From a virus: DNA of 40,184 nt. Location: IMG/VR virus record IMGVR_UViG_3300021471_000012, positions 1 through 40,184 of that record; one strand, written 5' to 3'. The position numbers and the translations under genes were made by a program. Below are positions 6,945 to 39,574 of this stretch, one piece after another; position 1 is the first letter of the stretch; each line of letters starts with the position of its first letter. The notes under the pieces were generated by a model, which saw only the letters and a program-made list of their open reading frames with translations, had not been told where the DNA came from and made no database searches.

Positions 6945-9776
6945 TTACCAAAATTTTAATCTTCCCAAAAACCTTTTCGCTTGGCTTTTAGCTCTCTCAA
7001 AATAATTGCTAACTTTTCCTGAAACCGCTTTCTTTATTACGCCAACATCTGACGGTAACCTCTTAAAAGTTTTTGGAGTATATGTTTTTTTAGTATAAGA
7101 AATGAATTTCTTTGCCGCTGGAATTGCCGGCGAGAATGGCGTTGTCAGTTTCCGTTTAGGAGCATAACCTCTCAAACTCGGCTCTTCTTTGTATCCATAC
7201 ATCCTTGCCCAGTCTTCAATGGTCTTGCCTTTCCATTGTCCTATGCCTTGGCCAGTGGCGGTAAATACCTTTTGGAGATCAGGCCGCCTTGCGTAAATTT
7301 GCCCTAATGCCCCACTTATTTTATTGCCTCCAAACAGCCCTTTAATTTTAGAAACAGCAGTAGAAGTTATGCGTTTAAATATGCCTTGTCTAGGAGCATA
7401 GCTTTTAAGGGTTGGCTCTTCTTTGTATCCATACATCCTTGCCCAGTCTTCAATGGTCTTGCCTTTCCATTGTCCTATGCCTTGGCCAGTGGCGGTAAAT
7501 ACCTTTTGGAGATCAGGCCGCCTTGCGTAAACTGCACCAAGAGCACCGCCGATTTGGCTCGGCTGAAATATCTTTTTCGCCGCAGTTCCAATCGCTCTGC
7601 CAATTGTCTTAATATCTTTAGGAAGCTGAGCCATCTTTTCTTTGCTAAAATCTTCTTTAAATTGAGACTTGACTTTCTGAATCGCTTCTATCGTTTTCGG
7701 GCCAACATAACCTGTTATTCCTTTTCTATAGGCCCCGATTGCTTTTAAATCTTTTTGCAATTCTTCAACAGCTTTTCCTCTGTCTCCAATCTTAAATTTA
7801 GATTTAATTATTTTTGCTACCGTATCTGAAGGCTTTGGAACTTCTGCAATTTTTTCCCGTAGAAATTCTTTAGGGGATGTAGTTTTAATAATATCAACTG
7901 CCTTCTGAATTTTCTCTCCAACATCAGCTCCTATGTTTAATCCTTTTCCAATAATTCCTTCTGGCCTGTCAAGCATATATCTGCCGACAGTTAATTTCAT
8001 TTTTCCAAATTTCCCTTCTTCTTGCGCAACTTCTTTCCAAACATCCTCTTTTATTTTTTGCTGGTATTTTTGTATATCTTCTGAACTCATTAGTTTAAAA
8101 TCAACATCCCTGTATCTTTTTTGAGATGGAATAAATTCTCCTGTCTCATTCAACATTCCCCATTGTTTAGTTTTCGGATCTTGGTATTCAACGATTACAT
8201 TTCCATTTTCATCCTGCCGGTAAATTTCTTTTACTTTAATTTTCTCTCCTCGCTCATTTGTTATTGTTCTTTCAGTAATTTCTCTCCAAACTCCCATATC
8301 AGGATCATAAACATATCCTTCTTTTTGGTAACTCTGGGTAGGGTCAAATTCCCAGCTTGTTTTAAAATTGCCGGCTTTGTCAATTTTTTGAATTGCTTTA
8401 AAATTAGGATCAGAAAAAATCCTGCCGGTAAAATTTCCTTTATCGTCTCTTATTGGAATATTGGCTTTCCAAAAGCCATCAGTTTCAAAATGCTCCTGAA
8501 CGCCTTTTAATGCATTATCTATTTTCTCCCACACGCTTTCAGTTAAATAAGGGCTATAAGCAAGATTGCTTAATTCTTTGATATAATCATCAGTCAGCTT
8601 AATCATTTCAACCGCATATTTTTCAGCATTGATATCGCCGGCATTTAATCTTTTCTCTAAAATGGTTTTTTGCTCAAAGTAATTATTTTTTACTTCGCTA
8701 TATTTTTCTCTTACTTCTTTTTCTCTCGCCTGCCTTATTTTTTTCGCATTTGCCTCGCTGATTTTTTCTTTTTGCTTTTCATATTCCTGAGCTTCCTTGA
8801 CTAACGAATCTATCCGCCCGATTAAAGTAAATTGCTTATTAACATCCGCTTCTGTCTCCAGCCGCCTGTTGAGATAATTATAGTAAACTTCTAAATTTTC
8901 ATCAAAACTATCGCCTAAATCTCCCCGTTTATACTTTAGCAACATATCCCTGTCTTCAAGGGCAACCTGCTTATTATACTCTGCTAAAGCTTCTCTATTG
9001 ATTGAATCCATCGTTGAAACATAGCGATTGTAATAAAGTATCTGTTTTTCCGGATCTTCGGCGCTCTGCGCAATGTCAAGATAAAACTTTGCCAAATCCA
9101 TCTTGTTTGCTGTCTGTTGGTTTATGTCAAATTTAATTTTCAATTCCGCCCTTCTAACTTTTTCCCATTGGGCATTTTGGATGTCTTTTTGGATTTCCAG
9201 ATATTCATTGCTGTCAGGATCAATATTTCTTAGCAAGTCTTCTTTAAATCTAATATAATCATCCGGCTCAATCGTTTTAGCAACTTTAAAGCCAAAATCC
9301 ATTTGCTTGTTAATGTGCTGTTCGGTAATATCATCTAACTTTTTCTGCGTAGTAAAATATTCCAAACTGTCTGGATCAAGAGTCTTTAACCGCTCAGTCA
9401 GATATTCTGAATAAACCGCATAACCAATTAAACCATCCTTATAATCTTCTGTTATTTGCCGGTATTCCAAATTAGCTTTCTCTTTGTATTCTTTTTCCAG
9501 TTTTTTATTGTAAGCATTAGTAACGTCTTTTATCCTTTTTTTTATCGTAAAATAATCGTGCGTTCCTTCTGTAAGCCCAGCTAATTTATTTTGGAGAAAA
9601 CTAATATACTCTTCAAACGAAATAATGCCATCCCTGTAATCTTCTGTCATCTGCCGATATTCCAAATCATAAAGGCGAGGCTTAGCCACTGCAGTCGGCA
9701 TATAAATGCCGCCCCCTCTTTTGCGACGGCTTCTTCTTTTAAGGGTTAATTTTTTTGTTGATCGTCTTAAAGCCAT
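6945..9776 (-). CDS. Large repeat-containing virion protein with peptidoglycan-binding domain (943 aa)
   Basis: The N-terminus is strikingly basic (KKLTLKRRSRRKRGGG). Residues 35-150 hold two about 60-residue helical repeats beginning LEYRQMTEDY and LEYRQITEDY, then more coiled coil. Residues about 660-705 match PG_binding_1 (GDRGKAVEELQKDLKAIGAY, then GYVGPKTIEAI). Two identical copies of a short module (ARRPDLQKVF, GKTIEDWARMYGY) lie near residues 748-787 and 826-865. This combination suggests a protein that meets the cell wall during DNA entry. It follows the portal gene by 6 bp and precedes the 1164-aa gene. Confidence 0.8.
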   Translation of the reverse strand: MALRRSTKKLTLKRRSRRKRGGGIYMPTAVAKPRLYDLEYRQMTEDYRDGIISFEEYISFLQNKLAGLTEGTHDYFTIKKRIKDVTNAYNKKLEKEYKEKANLEYRQITEDYKDGLIGYAVYSEYLTERLKTLDPDSLEYFTTQKKLDDITEQHINKQMDFGFKVAKTIEPDDYIRFKEDLLRNIDPDSNEYLEIQKDIQNAQWEKVRRAELKIKFDINQQTANKMDLAKFYLDIAQSAEDPEKQILYYNRYVSTMDSINREALAEYNKQVALEDRDMLLKYKRGDLGDSFDENLEVYYNYLNRRLETEADVNKQFTLIGRIDSLVKEAQEYEKQKEKISEANAKKIRQAREKEVREKYSEVKNNYFEQKTILEKRLNAGDINAEKYAVEMIKLTDDYIKELSNLAYSPYLTESVWEKIDNALKGVQEHFETDGFWKANIPIRDDKGNFTGRIFSDPNFKAIQKIDKAGNFKTSWEFDPTQSYQKEGYVYDPDMGVWREITERTITNERGEKIKVKEIYRQDENGNVIVEYQDPKTKQWGMLNETGEFIPSQKRYRDVDFKLMSSEDIQKYQQKIKEDVWKEVAQEEGKFGKMKLTVGRYMLDRPEGIIGKGLNIGADVGEKIQKAVDIIKTTSPKEFLREKIAEVPKPSDTVAKIIKSKFKIGDRGKAVEELQKDLKAIGAYRKGITGYVGPKTIEAIQKVKSQFKEDFSKEKMAQLPKDIKTIGRAIGTAAKKIFQPSQIGGALGAVYARRPDLQKVFTATGQGIGQWKGKTIEDWARMYGYKEEPTLKSYAPRQGIFKRITSTAVSKIKGLFGGNKISGALGQIYARRPDLQKVFTATGQGIGQWKGKTIEDWARMYGYKEEPSLRGYAPKRKLTTPFSPAIPAAKKFISYTKKTYTPKTFKRLPSDVGVIKKAVSGKVSNYFERAKSQAKRFLGRLKFW
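7180..7297. repeat. 118-bp perfect direct repeat, copy 1 (copy 2 at 7414-7531)
   Basis: The two 118-bp blocks are identical, 234 bp apart, inside the 943-aa virion gene. Each encodes the RPDLQ...DWARMYGYKEEP module. The intervening spacers differ. DNA-level identity implies a recent duplication or ongoing gene conversion, and the copies could recombine to delete one module. Confidence 0.95.
7414..7531. repeat. 118-bp perfect direct repeat, copy 2
   Basis: Identical to 7180-7297. Encodes the upstream (N-terminal) copy of the RPDLQ-type module, directly after the PG-binding region. Confidence 0.95.
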
Positions 9777-21019: not shown

Positions 21020-21310
21020 ATGAGTGAAAAAATTAAAATAGATAAAGATTTTCTAAAAAAAGTTTTAGAAGAACAATCAAAACTTAAAGAGAGAGTTAAA
21101 GCATTAGAATTAGAAAAAGAAAAAAGGGTATACCAAAATCTACAACATCTCCCAGAACAAAAAGATGAAAAGTTTAATATGGATTTCAGTATAAAATATT
21201 TTGGAGAAAAGGATATTTTAAAAGAACAGCAATTTCAAAAAGAATTAAAAGAAATGATGAAGAAATACAGAGTATTTGTTTGCCAAGCAACCTTAATAAA
21301 AGTTTTTTAA
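21020..21310 (+). CDS. Small coiled-coil protein (96 aa)
   Basis: Residues 8-40 are a Leu/Lys/Glu coiled coil (LKERVKALELEKEK). A mixed C-terminal segment ends FVCQATLIKVF. No SD; the ATG follows a run of A. It lies between the replication block and the zinc-ribbon RDF-like gene, with spacing typical of one transcript. Function unknown. Confidence 0.62.
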   Translation: MSEKIKIDKDFLKKVLEEQSKLKERVKALELEKEKRVYQNLQHLPEQKDEKFNMDFSIKYFGEKDILKEQQFQKELKEMMKKYRVFVCQATLIKVF

Positions 21311-21333
21311 ATAACAAAGAAAGGGACAAAAAT

Positions 21334-22254
21334 ATGCCAATTAAAGGACTTTCTCAAATTAGGCGATTACCTCGTTTAGGGGTTATCAGGTTAGGCGTTA
21401 AAACTAAATCAGCTAAAGGAACTGAATACCCTAAAGCTGTTGATTACTTTGTTTGTCCGGATGAAGTTAAAAAAGTTTATGGTGAAAAGCCGAGAAAATT
21501 AGATATTGTTCTGCCGCTTGAAAACATAGATGATGTTTTCCCACAATTTTATAAGAGATATGGCCATTCAATTGGATTAAAATGTAAGGGAGATGGCGAA
21601 ATAGCAAATCAAATCAATGAAAAAACAGGCGAGTTTGAAGAAGTAGAATGTCTTGGGCAAAAGTGTCCATTTTATCAAGCTAAAAAATGTAAAGAAGTGG
21701 CAACACTTAATTTCATTTTACCAAAAGTTCAGCTTGATGGAATATATCAGCTTCACACCTCCAGTTATCATTCTATAGTTAAAATCAATAGTTCGCTTGA
21801 TTACATTAAAGCAATGTTTGGCAAAATTTCAATGATTCCCCTTAAACTAATAGTGGAAGGAACAGAAGCCCACCCCGATAAAAAAATGAGAAAGATTGTT
21901 TATACCCTACGAATTGCTTTTGACACAAACGAAATTATGGAATCACTTCAAAAAAGAAAGACACTTTTATTTTCCCAGCCAAAAAAGCAAATAGAAATGC
22001 CAAATGAAATAAACGGACCACAGCAACCAGTAAAACCTGCCGCCCCAAAAATAGAAATGCCGACAAGCGATGAAAAGCCTGATGATCTTTTTCCGGAAGA
22101 AGAAGAAGAAATCAAACTTTGTGATGTTTGTTCACAAGCTCTTACTGAAGAAGAAGTTGATTATTGCGAATCCCATCAATTTACAAAAAATGGCAAACTT
22201 ATGTATCAATATTTATGTTCTAATTGTATAAAAGATTTAGGTTATAAAAAATAA
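21334..22254 (+). CDS. RDF/gp3-like phage protein with C-terminal zinc ribbon (306 aa)
   Basis: The N-terminal segment IRRLPRLGVIRLGVK, the GLKCKGDGEIA loop and the pattern LNFILPKVQLDGIYQLHTSS resemble the phage family annotated as recombination-directionality-factor-like (gp3-like). Internal Cys pairs at CLGQKCPFY and the C-terminal CDVC...CESH...CSNC (from about residue 261) are likely zinc sites. A Pro-rich acidic linker separates the two halves. I start at MPIKGLSQIR, which has an AAAGAAAGGGA site, not the longer frame that overlaps the preceding gene. No integrase is visible, so its role may be in replication or recombination instead. Confidence 0.7.
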   Translation: MPIKGLSQIRRLPRLGVIRLGVKTKSAKGTEYPKAVDYFVCPDEVKKVYGEKPRKLDIVLPLENIDDVFPQFYKRYGHSIGLKCKGDGEIANQINEKTGEFEEVECLGQKCPFYQAKKCKEVATLNFILPKVQLDGIYQLHTSSYHSIVKINSSLDYIKAMFGKISMIPLKLIVEGTEAHPDKKMRKIVYTLRIAFDTNEIMESLQKRKTLLFSQPKKQIEMPNEINGPQQPVKPAAPKIEMPTSDEKPDDLFPEEEEEIKLCDVCSQALTEEEVDYCESHQFTKNGKLMYQYLCSNCIKDLGYKK

Positions 22255-22257
22255 ACT

Positions 22258-22824
22258 ATGAAAATAAATAAAGAGGATATAGAAACAATAATTTGGATAT
22301 TTTTAGGAGTAGCATTTGTGTATTTAATGATTCATATTGGATTTTATCTGACAACAAGACCGCAAGCCGAAATGAAGTCCCCTCTGCAGACAGTATGGGA
22401 GACGAGAGTGGATCTGCAGGCTAAGTTTCCCGATGGAGTTAACGGAGTAGAGGAGATGCAAGGATGGACTCTTCAGCAATGGGCTCAAACATTTGGCTGG
22501 AAGGAGAACCGCTTGCTTAAAAGATATAATCCCGAAGCAGAGAAAGAATACATCTACCGCAAGTATCTTCCACTTGAGAGAACTTTACAGGAAATCTCAT
22601 CGCACATATATGGAGACGGCTACAACTGTATTGACTTCTCGGAAGACTTTCAGGAGGCGTTGAGAAATAAAGGAATGGAAAGTATTCTGATTATTGGTAA
22701 TACCCCGAGTGGCTATCACGAATGGGTGGGAGTATACTTTGATCCTATGTTGGGTAATTTTGTAAAAGTTTCAAGCAATTACAGATTTGAAAGGGTTGTT
22801 TCAAAAGGTTATTGGGATAAATAA
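22258..22824 (+). CDS. Membrane-anchored transglutaminase-like protein (188 aa)
   Basis: One membrane helix at residues 11-32 (IIWIFLGVAFVYLMIHIGFYL) is followed by an external domain. Residues 47-88 contain RVDLQAKF, GWTLQQWAQTFGW and a final RYNP, the same module as the RPDLQ repeats of the 943-aa virion protein. Residues 115-188 hold YNCIDFSEDF (Cys about 123), YHEWVGVYFDP (His about 153, Asp about 161), a transglutaminase/papain-like Cys-His-Asp arrangement. It probably acts outside the membrane on the wall or on proteins. Codon use is more GC-rich than its neighbours, suggesting transfer. Confidence 0.72.
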   Translation: MKINKEDIETIIWIFLGVAFVYLMIHIGFYLTTRPQAEMKSPLQTVWETRVDLQAKFPDGVNGVEEMQGWTLQQWAQTFGWKENRLLKRYNPEAEKEYIYRKYLPLERTLQEISSHIYGDGYNCIDFSEDFQEALRNKGMESILIIGNTPSGYHEWVGVYFDPMLGNFVKVSSNYRFERVVSKGYWDK

Positions 22825-22825
22825 A

Positions 22826-22847
22826 TTCGGGTGAAGTTTATAAACTA
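22826..22847. repeat. 22-bp direct repeat, left copy, upstream of the Ro60 gene
   Basis: Identical to 24665-24686. The core AGTTTATAAACT is a perfect 12-bp palindrome preceded by TTCGGGTGA. The two copies bracket exactly the Ro60 gene and its two RNAs, as operators, recombination sites or a cassette boundary would. Confidence 0.9.
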
Positions 22848-22862
22848 GTTAATAAATAAACT

Positions 22863-24395
22863 ATGTCAAAATTTAACAAAACTACAAAACAAAAAACTAT
22901 TACCAAAAATTATGAAGGAGAGAAAGCTTACACGCTAACTCCCGAATTGGAATTATATTCTGCTGTGGTTACATCTACCCTTAATCCGAAATTTTATGAG
23001 CCGACTGAAACTGGAAATGTTTTGCCTCGCTTAATGGCTTTAATGAAAAAAGTAAGTCCAGAGTTTGTTGCTAAGTTAGCAGTTTATGCCAGAGAAAAAA
23101 TGTATTTACGAACTATCCCGTTGGTTTTAGCGGTTAAGCTGGCTAAAATTCATAAAGGCAATAATCTTGTCTCAAGATTGGTAGAGCGAGTAATCCAAAG
23201 AGCTGATGAAATTACAGAAATCCTTGCTTATTACCAAAGATATCATGATAGAACAGATATAAAGAAATTAAATAAACTTTCCAAACAAATCCAGAAAGGA
23301 ATTGCAAAAGCGTTTGAAAGCGGTAAGTTTGACCGTTATAATTTACAAAAATATAATAGAAAGACTGAGGTAAGATTAAGGGACGCTTTATTCCTTTCTC
23401 ACGCTAAACCAAAGGATAAAGAGCAGGCAGAATTATTTAAGAAAATTGCCGAAGACACTTTGGAAGTTCCTTATACTTGGGAAGTTGAGTTGTCCCACTT
23501 AGGTCAGCAAGAGTTTGAAACAAAAGAAGAAAGACAAGAAGCATTTAAAAAGAAATGGGAAGAACTGATTGATAGCGGAAAAATAGGTTATATGGCTCAA
23601 TTAAGAAATTTGAGAAATATTCTTGAGGCTGATGTTTCACAGAATCATCTTGCTAAAGTATGCAGTTATCTATCCAATCCAGAAGCGGTCAGGAAATCAA
23701 AACAACTGCCCTTTAGATTTTTATCAGCATATCGGGAACTGAAAAAAACTCCTTCTCCTTACACTTCAATGGTGTTAGACGCTTTAGAAGAAGCGATTAA
23801 AGTAAGCGCAGAGAACATAAAAGGATATGATTATAATACTTCAGTTTTGATTGCTTGCGATGTGTCTGGTTCAATGGAAACCTCAATTTCTCCGAGAAGC
23901 AAGGTTCAGTATTATGACATCGGATTGGTGTTAGGAATGCTTTTACAATCAAGGTGCAAAGCGGTGATCTCGGGAATGTTTGGTAATGAATGGAAAGTAG
24001 TTCAATTGCCAAGAACGAGTATTTTACATAATGCTGATGAACTACACGAAAGGGAAGGAGAGGTGGGATATTCTACAAACGGCTGGAAGGTTATCAGATA
24101 TTTAAGAGAAAATAATATCAGGATAGACAAGGTGATGATATTTACTGACTGCCAGTTGTGGGATTTTGTTTTTGGTGAGACTCATATTAACGATGAATGG
24201 AGAGAATACAAGAAGTTCAATCCCACTGCTAAACTTTACCTGTTTGATTTGGCTGGTTATGGAAATACTCCTTTATCGGTTCAAAGAGATGATGTTCATC
24301 TGATTGCTGGCTGGTCTGATAAGGTGTTTGATGTTTTAGAAGCATTGGAAAAGGGCGGTTCGGCAATTGACGAGATAAACAAAATTGAACTTTGA
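22863..24395 (+). CDS. rsr: Ro60/TROVE-domain RNA-binding protein (510 aa)
   Basis: Bacterial-type Ro60 orthologue. Residues 1-325 form the helical TROVE ring (LYSAVVTSTLNPKFYE, LVLAVKLAK, RFLSAYREL). Residues 326-510 are a von Willebrand A domain with a MIDAS motif DVSGSMETS near 331-339 and a later MIFTDCQLWD strand. The family binds Y RNAs on the outside of the ring and misfolded RNA ends inside it. In bacteria it partners with PNPase in RNA decay or rRNA maturation. Length is typical. Y-RNA-like genes start 10 bp after the stop, the usual neighbourhood. No SD; the ATG follows AAATAAACT. Confidence 0.93.
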   Translation: MSKFNKTTKQKTITKNYEGEKAYTLTPELELYSAVVTSTLNPKFYEPTETGNVLPRLMALMKKVSPEFVAKLAVYAREKMYLRTIPLVLAVKLAKIHKGNNLVSRLVERVIQRADEITEILAYYQRYHDRTDIKKLNKLSKQIQKGIAKAFESGKFDRYNLQKYNRKTEVRLRDALFLSHAKPKDKEQAELFKKIAEDTLEVPYTWEVELSHLGQQEFETKEERQEAFKKKWEELIDSGKIGYMAQLRNLRNILEADVSQNHLAKVCSYLSNPEAVRKSKQLPFRFLSAYRELKKTPSPYTSMVLDALEEAIKVSAENIKGYDYNTSVLIACDVSGSMETSISPRSKVQYYDIGLVLGMLLQSRCKAVISGMFGNEWKVVQLPRTSILHNADELHEREGEVGYSTNGWKVIRYLRENNIRIDKVMIFTDCQLWDFVFGETHINDEWREYKKFNPTAKLYLFDLAGYGNTPLSVQRDDVHLIAGWSDKVFDVLEALEKGGSAIDEINKIEL

Positions 24396-24404
24396 AAAAC
24401 AAAG

Positions 24405-24494
24405 GGTGGCGTAGGAAAGAGTTACTTCGATCGGTTTACATAGGTTCGACTCCTATTGCTACCTTCGGGTAGTAAAATACTCTTTCCGCCTGTT
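24405..24494 (+). ncRNA. YrlA-like Y RNA (Ro60-bound)
   Basis: The ends form a 12-bp helix: GGC (408-410) with GCC (488-490), a three-base GTA bulge, then GGAAAGAGT (414-422) with ACTCTTTCC (479-487). Inside is a perfect T-arm mimic, ATAGG-TTCGACT-CCTAT (440-456), joined to an acceptor-like hairpin TGCTACC-TTCG-GGTAGTA (457-474). This is the permuted tRNA-like layout of YrlA RNAs: the Ro-binding stem takes the anticodon position and the acceptor is capped by a tetraloop. No D-arm is visible. It lies directly downstream of the Ro60 gene. Confidence 0.8.
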
Positions 24495-24503
24495 CCCCTT
24501 TAC

Positions 24504-24633
24504 GGCGGGGGTAGCTCAGTGGCAGAGCGCTTATGTTCTCTTTTCGCTTGTTATCCTCTCGGTGTCGTAGAAAAGAGATACTTCGCCTTTTTTCACGCGA
24601 GAGGTCGTGGGTTCGATTCCCACCCCCCGCCCA
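24504..24633 (+). ncRNA. tRNA-like RNA with a Y-RNA helix in place of the anticodon arm
   Basis: It has tRNA arms: acceptor GCGGGGG/CCCCCGC (505-511, 624-630), TA, D-arm GCTC-AGTGGCA-GAGC (514-528), T-arm GTGGG-TTCGATT-CCCAC (607-623) and an encoded CCA at 631-633. Between D and T arms lie 78 nt instead of about 22. They fold as TCTCTTTTC/GAAAAGAGA (537-545, 570-578), then TTCGC/GCGAG (582-586, 597-601) with a 10-nt loop. The two strands of the first helix copy those of the upstream Y RNA in swapped order. CCTCTCG (555-561) could also pair with CGAGAGG (598-604) as a pseudoknot. No usable anticodon stem was found. Confidence 0.78.
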
Positions 24634-24664
24634 AACTTGAAATTTAATCATTAAGCCAAATAAG

Positions 24665-24686
24665 TTCGGGTGAAGTTTATAAACTA
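24665..24686. repeat. 22-bp direct repeat, right copy, after the Y-RNA pair
   Basis: Exact copy of 22826-22847 with the palindrome AGTTTATAAACT, 32 bp after the tRNA-like RNA and 44 bp before the next ATG. Confidence 0.9.
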
Positions 24687-37057: not shown

Positions 37058-39574
37058 TTAATAATTTAATATTGATTTAATTTTTGCTTTGAGTTGGTCA
37101 GAAGATTTAATTCTTCCTCTAACTTGGTTGGAAGATTTAATTTTTGCTCTAAGTTGGTTGGAAGATTTAATTTTTGCTATTGCCGCCGCTATCTTTTGTT
37201 TCCATATATTATCTGCTCCTATACCTGAATCTAATATCTCAACTAAAGTGGCAAAGGTTAGAACTTCGCTTCCGCTTCCGCTGTCATTAACTTGCTTACT
37301 ATATGTTTCTTCTATATTAACGCTATCCGCTCCGCTTCCAGCATCAGACAAAGCTAACTGAATAAGAACACTTAATGCTTCTTGTCCTGCTCCTGTTTCG
37401 CTTAACGCTATCTGAACTAATATTTCTAATGCTTCTGTCGCTGAACCGCTGTCACTAATGGCAATTTGTTTTAAAATCTCAATAGCTTCGCTTCCATTTC
37501 CTGAATCAATTAAAGCAATTTGTCCTATAACGGTTATTGCATCCGTTCCGCTGGATGTATCCGTTAAAGCTATCTGATTTAAAATAGCCAAAATCTCACT
37601 TCCGATTCCACTATCTTGAATTAACATCTCAATTAAAATATTTAGCGCTTCGCTTCCTGAACCACTATCTTGAATAAATTTTCCTTCGCCTGATACGGCA
37701 ATCTCATCCGTTCCACTGCCAGTTTCTGTAATAGCTAATTTGGCCAAAACTGTTAAAGCTTCACTGCTTACTGATCCGCTATCTGCTATTGCTATTTGCT
37801 TTAATATTTCCAGCGCCTCTGTTCCGCTTCCGCTGTCATTTTGTAAAATTTGTGAAAGAATATTTATAATTTCCGTTCCTATGCCGCTATCTACTACTGC
37901 CAGCCTGACTAATACCATTGCGGCTTCTGTTCCTGTTCCACTGTCAACCATTGCTATCTTGGCCAAAATACTTAATGCATCTGTTCCTGTTCCTGTATCT
38001 GAAACCTGCTTACTATCGCCTTGAACTTGTTTATCTACTGCATCTGTTCCTGTGCCTGTTTCTTGTAAAGCAATTTGGGATAAAATGTTTATTATTTCGC
38101 TACCTGCGCCGCTATCAGTGATGGCAATTTTATATAAAATATTTAGCACTTCGCTTCCTGAACCAGTGTCGGTTACACTTAATCTATTTATTAAAGAAAT
38201 AATATCTGCACCTTGTCCTGTTTCTAAAAGTGATTTTAATTGGGTAATTGAAATTGTATCTGCTCCACTTCCTGTATCTGTTAAATTCATACTGGCAAGA
38301 ATCGTAGCGATGTCCGCGCCAGCTCCGCTGTCTGTGATTGATGTTTGACATTTGATTGAAACCGCATCTGATCCTGAACCAGTGTCTGAAACATTTTTTT
38401 CGGTTGCCCCCCCTGCAACATACTCGTCAGCTCCGATGTCCCAGCTACTATCCCGCGTATCGCCGTCTATGTCGTCAGAAAATAAGCCAGAACCTGGGTC
38501 GTTCGTCCCAGCGTTATACAGAACCGAATTCGTATTCTTGATATGGAAATCCCCGTTGGCGTAATCCACAAAGGCGTCGTTCCAGTCATCGCTCTCGTTT
38601 GCTCCTGGACTTATGTCAACGGCATTAGTGCCGTCGCCGTCATCGGATGCGTTGTGGTCACAGGTAGAAAACGTGCCCTTAAAATCATCAACATTGTTAA
38701 AAACTACATTGTTAATCGCAGTTAGTGTCCCTGCATAGCGGTATATGCCATTATAACAATCCGAAATTGTGTTATTGTAGATATAAAGAGTAGCATCAGC
38801 TTCCCAATCACATATGCCAACTCTGGTGCTGTTCCCTTTAAATCCATAAATGATATTATTCCAAATTTTCCCTACAGTTCCAGACGCAGAGTTCCAAAAA
38901 TTTATGCCTGTAACGTAGTTTCCGCCACTTACAACACCTCTGATGATGTTGTTTGAAATCCTGATTTCCGAAGTTCCGCCTGGTCTCATCCAGACGGCAT
39001 ACTGCTCAGTGCTCGTTGTTAATTTTATCTGCAATCCGTCTATCCTTACATAGTTCTCATAATTAGTTATGCAGTCAACATTATTAGTCTCCAGCCTGTA
39101 TTTGTTCGTATTCCATTTCCCGTCGTGCCTCGCCTCAGGAGTGGTATAAATCTTGATATAATGGTTGGCATCGGTCGTCCATCCGTCTATTACGACAGCG
39201 GAAGTGTCGGCATTTATCCAAGTTCCGTCTATCTTGGCAACGGCACTCGGAGAATCGCCCGTGTCCGAAATCTGAAAATAATTACTGCTGTCAACTCTCC
39301 ACTGGTCGCCCGACTGAAAGGAGAAAGAAGTATTTGAAATATCCTTTACAAGAATCTGCGAGCCGGTGGCGTGTAGGCAAATCGCAGTCACTCCTTGGCT
39401 TGAGCCTCCCCTATACAGCGTAACAGAATCTCCGTCCGATATCGCTCCAGTTTTCGAGCCGCCGAAAACCTTCGTCGCGGCGGAAACCAAATCGCATTCA
39501 ATCGCATCTTCCCAGGAAGACAACGAGGAATAATCTCCGCCAGACTCCTTAATTGTGCAGACAAACTCTGTCAT
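37058..39574 (-). CDS. Tail fibre: N-terminal attachment module, beta-helix and long acidic repeats (838 aa)
   Basis: Residues 1-130 (MTEFVCTIKESGGDYSSLSS...) are an N-terminal domain common to metagenomic beta-helix proteins and probably attach to the virion. Residues 150-385 show right-handed parallel beta-helix rungs (IRISNNIIRGV, KIWNNIIYGF, LYIYNNTISDCYNGI) ending DIGADEYVAGG. From 390 to 785 follow about 17 repeats of some 22-24 residues like DSGSGSEALNILIEMLI. The tail is four KIKSSNQLRA-type ten-residue repeats. No SD at the start. Confidence 0.85.
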   Translation of the reverse strand: MTEFVCTIKESGGDYSSLSSWEDAIECDLVSAATKVFGGSKTGAISDGDSVTLYRGGSSQGVTAICLHATGSQILVKDISNTSFSFQSGDQWRVDSSNYFQISDTGDSPSAVAKIDGTWINADTSAVVIDGWTTDANHYIKIYTTPEARHDGKWNTNKYRLETNNVDCITNYENYVRIDGLQIKLTTSTEQYAVWMRPGGTSEIRISNNIIRGVVSGGNYVTGINFWNSASGTVGKIWNNIIYGFKGNSTRVGICDWEADATLYIYNNTISDCYNGIYRYAGTLTAINNVVFNNVDDFKGTFSTCDHNASDDGDGTNAVDISPGANESDDWNDAFVDYANGDFHIKNTNSVLYNAGTNDPGSGLFSDDIDGDTRDSSWDIGADEYVAGGATEKNVSDTGSGSDAVSIKCQTSITDSGAGADIATILASMNLTDTGSGADTISITQLKSLLETGQGADIISLINRLSVTDTGSGSEVLNILYKIAITDSGAGSEIINILSQIALQETGTGTDAVDKQVQGDSKQVSDTGTGTDALSILAKIAMVDSGTGTEAAMVLVRLAVVDSGIGTEIINILSQILQNDSGSGTEALEILKQIAIADSGSVSSEALTVLAKLAITETGSGTDEIAVSGEGKFIQDSGSGSEALNILIEMLIQDSGIGSEILAILNQIALTDTSSGTDAITVIGQIALIDSGNGSEAIEILKQIAISDSGSATEALEILVQIALSETGAGQEALSVLIQLALSDAGSGADSVNIEETYSKQVNDSGSGSEVLTFATLVEILDSGIGADNIWKQKIAAAIAKIKSSNQLRAKIKSSNQVRGRIKSSDQLKAKIKSILNY
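37081..37170. repeat. Three 30-bp tandem repeats at the fibre C-terminus
   Basis: Units at 37081, 37111 and 37141, each 30 bp and differing by only a few bases, encode the basic ten-residue motif KIKSSNQLRA. Confidence 0.85.

Follow-up and report, generated by a model that had tools for sequence, protein, structure and literature searches.

We conclude, with a probability of about 0.8, that positions 24505-24633 (+ strand) of a viral record encode a Y RNA of an unpermuted class, in which the tRNA-like parts stand in tRNA order, and that this RNA is most likely processed from the transcript of a neighboring Ro60 gene and presumably binds Ro60. We refer to this RNA as unit 2 and to the whole stretch of DNA analyzed, 40,184 bases long, as the window. 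Viral unpermuted Y RNAs are a real and recurrent family with conserved structure, and, judged by Rfam and the open papers found, their layout is apparently undescribed. The core of unit 2 most likely consists of acceptor, D and T arms together with the tertiary 15-48 pair, with the Y stem projecting at the place of the anticodon loop.

The window encodes terminase, portal, coat and tail genes, as well as a 510-aa Ro60/TROVE protein (22863-24395, + strand). This protein matched Pfam TROVE (PF05731, E 4.8e-28), vWA_Ro60 (PF25045, 3.1e-6, at its cut-off), the PHROG 850 RNA-binding protein (3.4e-61) and the PDB TROVE proteins 9l5y/9kop (1.7e-25), and it has the combination that defines Ro60/TROVE members, TROVE plus a vWA domain with a MIDAS-type motif (DVSGSM). 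On the + strand, the Ro60 gene ends at 24395, a first Y RNA (unit 1) starts at 24401, and after a 3-base gap unit 2 follows from 24505, 109 nt 3' of the Ro60 gene. A 29-nt direct repeat (28/29 identical, 22819-22847 and 24658-24686) brackets the Ro60 gene and both Y RNAs, with each copy a short way upstream of an ORF start; the repeat may be a common promoter, or the segment that it encloses may be exchangeable as a module. Elsewhere in the window, there is an 838-aa protein (37058-39574, - strand) whose C-terminal half consists of DSGSGSEALNIL-type repeats.

Unit 1 (24401-24501, + strand; fold -35.2 kcal/mol, z -3.6) has the permuted layout of YrlA. As the first-pass annotation had described, it runs from a Y 5' strand through a T arm (24440-24456) and a 7-bp acceptor capped by UUCG (24457-24474) to a Y 3' strand, and its sequence has no D arm. 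The tRNA model reached only a sub-threshold 28.2 bits on unit 1, at 24405-24464.

Unit 2 is ordered acceptor, D arm, Y 3' strand, closing loop, Y 5' strand, T arm, acceptor. The 5' acceptor strand GCGGGGG (24505-24511) pairs with 24624-24630 at 7/7 Watson-Crick positions and is followed by a D arm of the form GCUC...GAGC with GG in its loop (24514-24528; placed by the Rfam tRNA alignment and 100% paired in the 17 aligned sequences). The Y RNA 3' strand (24531-24553) leads to a loop, CC-UCUC-GG (24555-24562), whose closing pairs are likewise 100% paired (n=17) and change on both sides among the 17, with a UUCG loop in several relatives. The Y RNA 5' strand, GGUGUCGUAGAAAAGAGAUACUUCG (24561-24585), completes a 9-bp helix between 24537-24545 (5' side) and 24570-24578 (3' side). 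The T arm, GUGGG UUCGAUU CCCAC (24607-24623; also from the tRNA alignment, 98.8% paired in the family), is followed by the 3' acceptor strand CCCCCGC and directly by CCA (24624-24633). Our recount agreed with the 78 nt reported between the D and T arms and with the observation that this insert holds both strands of the upstream Y helix in swapped order, 24561-24585 being identical to 24405-24429 at 22/25 positions and 24538-24552 to 24480-24494 at 13/15. In a free search of 500 dinucleotide shuffles of the insert, 0/500 reached 22/25 and 2/500 reached 13/15.

Models of known RNA families placed unit 2 among tRNAs by its arms. Rfam tRNA (RF00005) scored 47.4 bits on 24505-24631 against a gathering score of 29, the only Rfam family to pass its cut-off at unit 2, and the arms and tertiary signature of the tRNA model were all found. 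Rfam YrlA (RF02553) gave 19 bits against a gathering score of 69, spanning 24403-24560 across both units; unit 2 lacks the permuted order of YrlA and has a Ro60-type stem beside a TROVE gene. ARAGORN reported no tRNA, and by tRNA criteria the sequence of unit 2 holds no anticodon stem-loop with U33 and an anticodon. A DNA similarity search with 24390-24640 against phages returned only T-arm matches to tRNA-like stretches. The earlier description of canonical arms with an encoded CCA stood for the arms; CCA is present at 24631-24633 but comes one base early, because it abuts the 7-bp stem without a spare discriminator base. Allowing for the usual discriminator base, unit 2 would terminate in C-CAA and not in N-CCA.

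Relatives in other viruses were sought with a consensus pattern of the Y 5' strand and with Ro60 profile scans, since a scan of viral contigs with a single Ro60 protein had yielded none, and several hundred loci were obtained. At these Ro60 loci many Y RNAs follow the permuted order of YrlA, and they frequently form tandem arrays. A unit was classed as unpermuted if its acceptor 3' strand paired better with the D-arm side preceding it, and as permuted if it paired better with the one following it; a first census gave 140 permuted cases versus a handful of true unpermuted ones. With wider sets, 17 unpermuted members could be aligned, drawn from 12 virus contigs (the window, L092, L379, L393, L419, L480 and L501 with one each; L017, L089, L090, L491 and L506 with two each), and the archaeal virus HGTV-1 provided a further member. 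All of these were found near a Ro60 gene. Of 132 distinct groups of viral Ro60 contigs, 11 contained at least one unpermuted unit, and the window and L017 add two more; by the criteria used, ~92% of the viral Ro60 loci examined were without one. Both layouts, which the first-pass annotation had suggested seeking in other viruses, were thus found there, the unpermuted order recurring at Ro60 loci and the permuted order being commoner.

Membership was kept strict. Model matches of 20-65 bits were left out, since such scores are also reached by junctions of tandem YrlA units and by ordinary tRNAs; ten members outside model building scored 67-103 bits, and tandem junctions of permuted units at most ~65. 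A strict junction pattern with a UUCG cap matched only in the L089 and L090 contigs, and the pattern TTGTT..CC..GGTGBCGTAG matched many stretches, among the known members only L017. A search with R1 of 395 genomes of one phylum, with eight candidates per genome scored among the matches listed, did not recover the control genome G011. On a bacterial contig of that genome (G011:C184; L523/L535, ~7100-9350), we observed a cluster of units with an unpermuted-like layout and acceptors of GAAGCAG/CUGCUUC or AAAGCAG/CUGCUUU. The cluster is bordered by a type I restriction-modification locus on one side and, on the other, by a 743-aa ORF with a sub-threshold Prok-RING_4 match; no Ro60 gene was recognized on this contig.

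The proposed structure is conserved among the relatives. In a MAFFT alignment of seven members, with the structure drawn from the same sequences, 94.6% of cells were paired and 18/29 pairs changed on both sides, with covariation of 0.667 versus 0.224 in shuffles (0/500). The 17-member alignment (A7), built with the structure model and so favoring that structure, agreed with this outcome, with 94.9% of cells paired and changes on both sides at 24/29 pairs (acceptor 7/7, Y helix 8/9, closing pairs 2/2, T stem 3/5). The first-pass annotation had tied its reading to conservation of the helix 24537-24545/24570-24578 in homologues, and the eight of nine Y helix pairs are compensatory changes in exactly this helix. 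The tertiary Levitt pair R15-Y48, which lies outside the structure model, was correct in 17/17 members, as A-U in 7 and G-C in 10. Covariation in A7 was 0.780 versus 0.223 when shuffled (0/500) and at most 0.16 when partners were slid, and the Levitt agreement was matched by 5/100,000 shuffles; because shuffles ignore relatedness, such figures are strong but give no formal probability. U8, A14, GG and UUCRA were likewise present in 17/17. An in-register N-CCA occurred in 5/17 unpermuted units versus 11/176 permuted ones, with 12/17 unpermuted units lacking it, a distribution that fits tRNA-type 3' ends in some members.

Folding of the lone window RNA differed from the family structure. Without constraints, unit 2 favored another fold by ~6.5 kcal/mol (-52.1 vs -45.6), in which 24555-24561 pairs with 24598-24604 and the Y helix and D arm are displaced. 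This pairing was rejected as a conserved structure, being 68.8% paired in relatives versus 65.3% in shuffles. Unconstrained folds of L089b, L017a, L092 and L506 formed the acceptor, D arm, anticodon-like stem, Y helix and T arm together.

Loop closure distinguishes the two topologies. Permuted units cap the acceptor helix with short loops, often UUCG, and unpermuted units cap the Y stem, as CC-UUCG-GG (L089, L090), GC-UUCG-GC (L419, L501) or CGAAAG (L393). That either the acceptor or the Y stem should be capped, to the exclusion of the other, would be expected if the chain opening changed within one fold, and this reciprocal closure together with the class of relatives upholds the circular permutation originally proposed. 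In layout, an unpermuted unit is the junction of two tandem permuted units; therefore the model also matches tandem arrays (Hymenobacter and others, 20-65 bits), and the layout could arise from a tandem array by a phase shift. The further claim that the anticodon arm is replaced was borne out for the loop and not for the arm as a whole, since several relatives retain a 5-bp anticodon stem; unit 2 in the window has lost most of its arm to the replacement.

Other arrangements were seen at related loci. In L085 and L088, Y RNAs just upstream of Ro60 consist of the Ro60 stem and a short loop without a tRNA-like module. Caulobacter phage CcrColossus (L007, 1300-2450) has ~6 tandem YrlA-like units upstream of its TROVE gene, one of which overlaps an annotated tRNA-Gln. 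Phage csAssE-Sib (OR575929; L010, 2284-2430) shows a third layout, in which the Y 5' and Y 3' strands flank an annotated tRNA-Lys whose anticodon arm is normal; the Y stem is on the acceptor side, and in the predicted fold outer and inner Y helices surround the tRNA. An adjoining annotated tRNA-Tyr looks alike.

That unit 2 has exactly the layout of a tandem YrlA junction raises the question of whether 24505-24633 is simply the end of a decayed YrlA unit joined to the start of the next, with its acceptor pairing inherited. The model scores on tandem junctions in Bacteroidota and phages (up to ~65 bits) and the weak Rfam YrlA match across both units speak for such debris, which we nonetheless consider unlikely: the T arm at 24623 has no D arm after it, neither acceptor strand has an alternative partner, and across the family the A3 acceptor strands find a better match in the A5 strand of their own unit than in those of neighboring copies. 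The window and L092 units are also solitary, and UUCG-type capping of the Y stem is sensible only for a single chain. It is very improbable that unit 2 is instead a decaying tRNA gained by chance or a phage attachment site in which the Y insert is incidental. The 3' halves of tRNAs are often used as attP, the window has a gene resembling recombination directionality factors (21280-22254), and the T arm and acceptor half of unit 2 resemble tRNA genes over 24-40 nt; against this, acceptor sequences vary among relatives yet pair within each unit, both tRNA halves are retained, and the place beside Ro60 recurs.

An intron-containing tRNA, from which the insert would be spliced to leave a normal tRNA, also appears quite unlikely. 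Splicing would suit the annotation of the HGTV-1 relative, 'tRNA Asp (gtc) + Intron', the RtcB and RNA ligases that this virus encodes (PMC8651126), and the 5-bp anticodon stem kept by several relatives. For the window RNA, removing any contiguous stretch fails to leave a proper 5-bp anticodon stem, the outcome that the first-pass annotation had named as refuting its reading; CUUAU with GCGAG has one mismatch and needs two G-U pairs. The HGTV-1 'anticodon' GTC lacks U33 because a C precedes it. Moreover, the insert is the Y module found also in permuted Y RNAs, which are not tRNA genes, it covaries as a stem, and the aligned members adjoin Ro60 genes.

Returning to unit 2 as an unpermuted Y RNA, gene order points to Ro60 as the probable partner of this class, and we infer Ro60 binding, end processing and function of unit 2 along the following lines. 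One transcript would carry Ro60, unit 1 and unit 2. The enzymes of tRNA maturation would excise unit 2 from it, with RNase P cutting at 24504/24505 and with a 3' nuclease and CCA enzyme acting as well; the RNase P cut alone would both mature unit 2 and release unit 1 at its 3' end. Phage Ro60 would then take the capped Y stem, holding the tRNA-like head with its free 3' end away from the protein and toward PNPase or tRNA-binding proteins. This would resemble the bacterial Ro60 Rsr, which a Y RNA tethers to PNPase through binding of PNPase by the tRNA-like domain (review PMC8394870). Candidate roles of the head in infection are PNPase recruitment, a gate for Ro60 and a decoy for tRNA nucleases. 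More broadly, it is a tentative possibility that a class of viral Ro60 RNAs is processed like tRNAs (RNase P, 3' tRNase, CCA tailing, possibly aminoacylation) while their anticodon end is held by Ro60. If so, tandem YrlA arrays would interconvert permuted and unpermuted genes, offering a route, still in operation, for the derivation of Y RNAs and tRNAs from each other.

YrlA is a circular permutation of tRNA and can be superposed on it (PMC11472068). It mimics tRNA in space, not in chain order; the unpermuted class, sometimes beside permuted units in one virus, shows the same fold opened at either end. This makes it possible to test how Y RNAs arose and what their tRNA-like head does, and enzymes that require tRNA ends can be separated from proteins that read only the fold, because unpermuted units would have a free 3' end where the loop of YrlA is closed. 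As the HGTV-1 entry illustrates, tRNA annotation of viral genomes can miscall unpermuted Y RNAs as tRNAs or intron-containing tRNAs.

Among known systems, tRNA (RF00005) shares with unit 2 the arm order, the 7-bp acceptor and the D and T arms, and with the unpermuted family U8, A14, the Levitt pair 15-48, GG and UUCRA. Unit 2 differs in having a Y stem for the anticodon loop and 78 nt between the D and T arms, and it cannot decode because it has no anticodon. tmRNA (permuted form: RF04321) also has a tRNA-like end domain and a large insert between the D and T sides, and like the Y RNA class it occurs in permuted and unpermuted forms in nature. Unit 2 is far smaller, no tag-peptide reading frame was found in it, and its partner by gene order would be Ro60, as opposed to SmpB for tmRNA.

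A further known system is the HGTV-1 RNA deposited as an intron-containing tRNA-Asp (KC292026, 70440-70571; L366, 4441-4572), which appears to be an unpermuted Y RNA. It has the layout of unit 2 with a capped Y stem, CCAC-GUUUU-GUGG, and a TROVE gene near it, as at unit 2, with RtcB also close by; it differs in coming from an archaeal virus and in its D arm of the GGCC..GGC type. YrlA itself (RF02553; Salmonella YrlA structure 6CU1) has, like unit 2, a Ro60-binding stem, a D arm, a T arm and an acceptor-like helix, the Y stem is attached to the tRNA core in the same way, and both adjoin a Ro60/Rsr gene. The two differ in where the chain opens: YrlA ends at the Y stem and has its acceptor capped, whereas unit 2 ends at the acceptor and has its Y stem capped.
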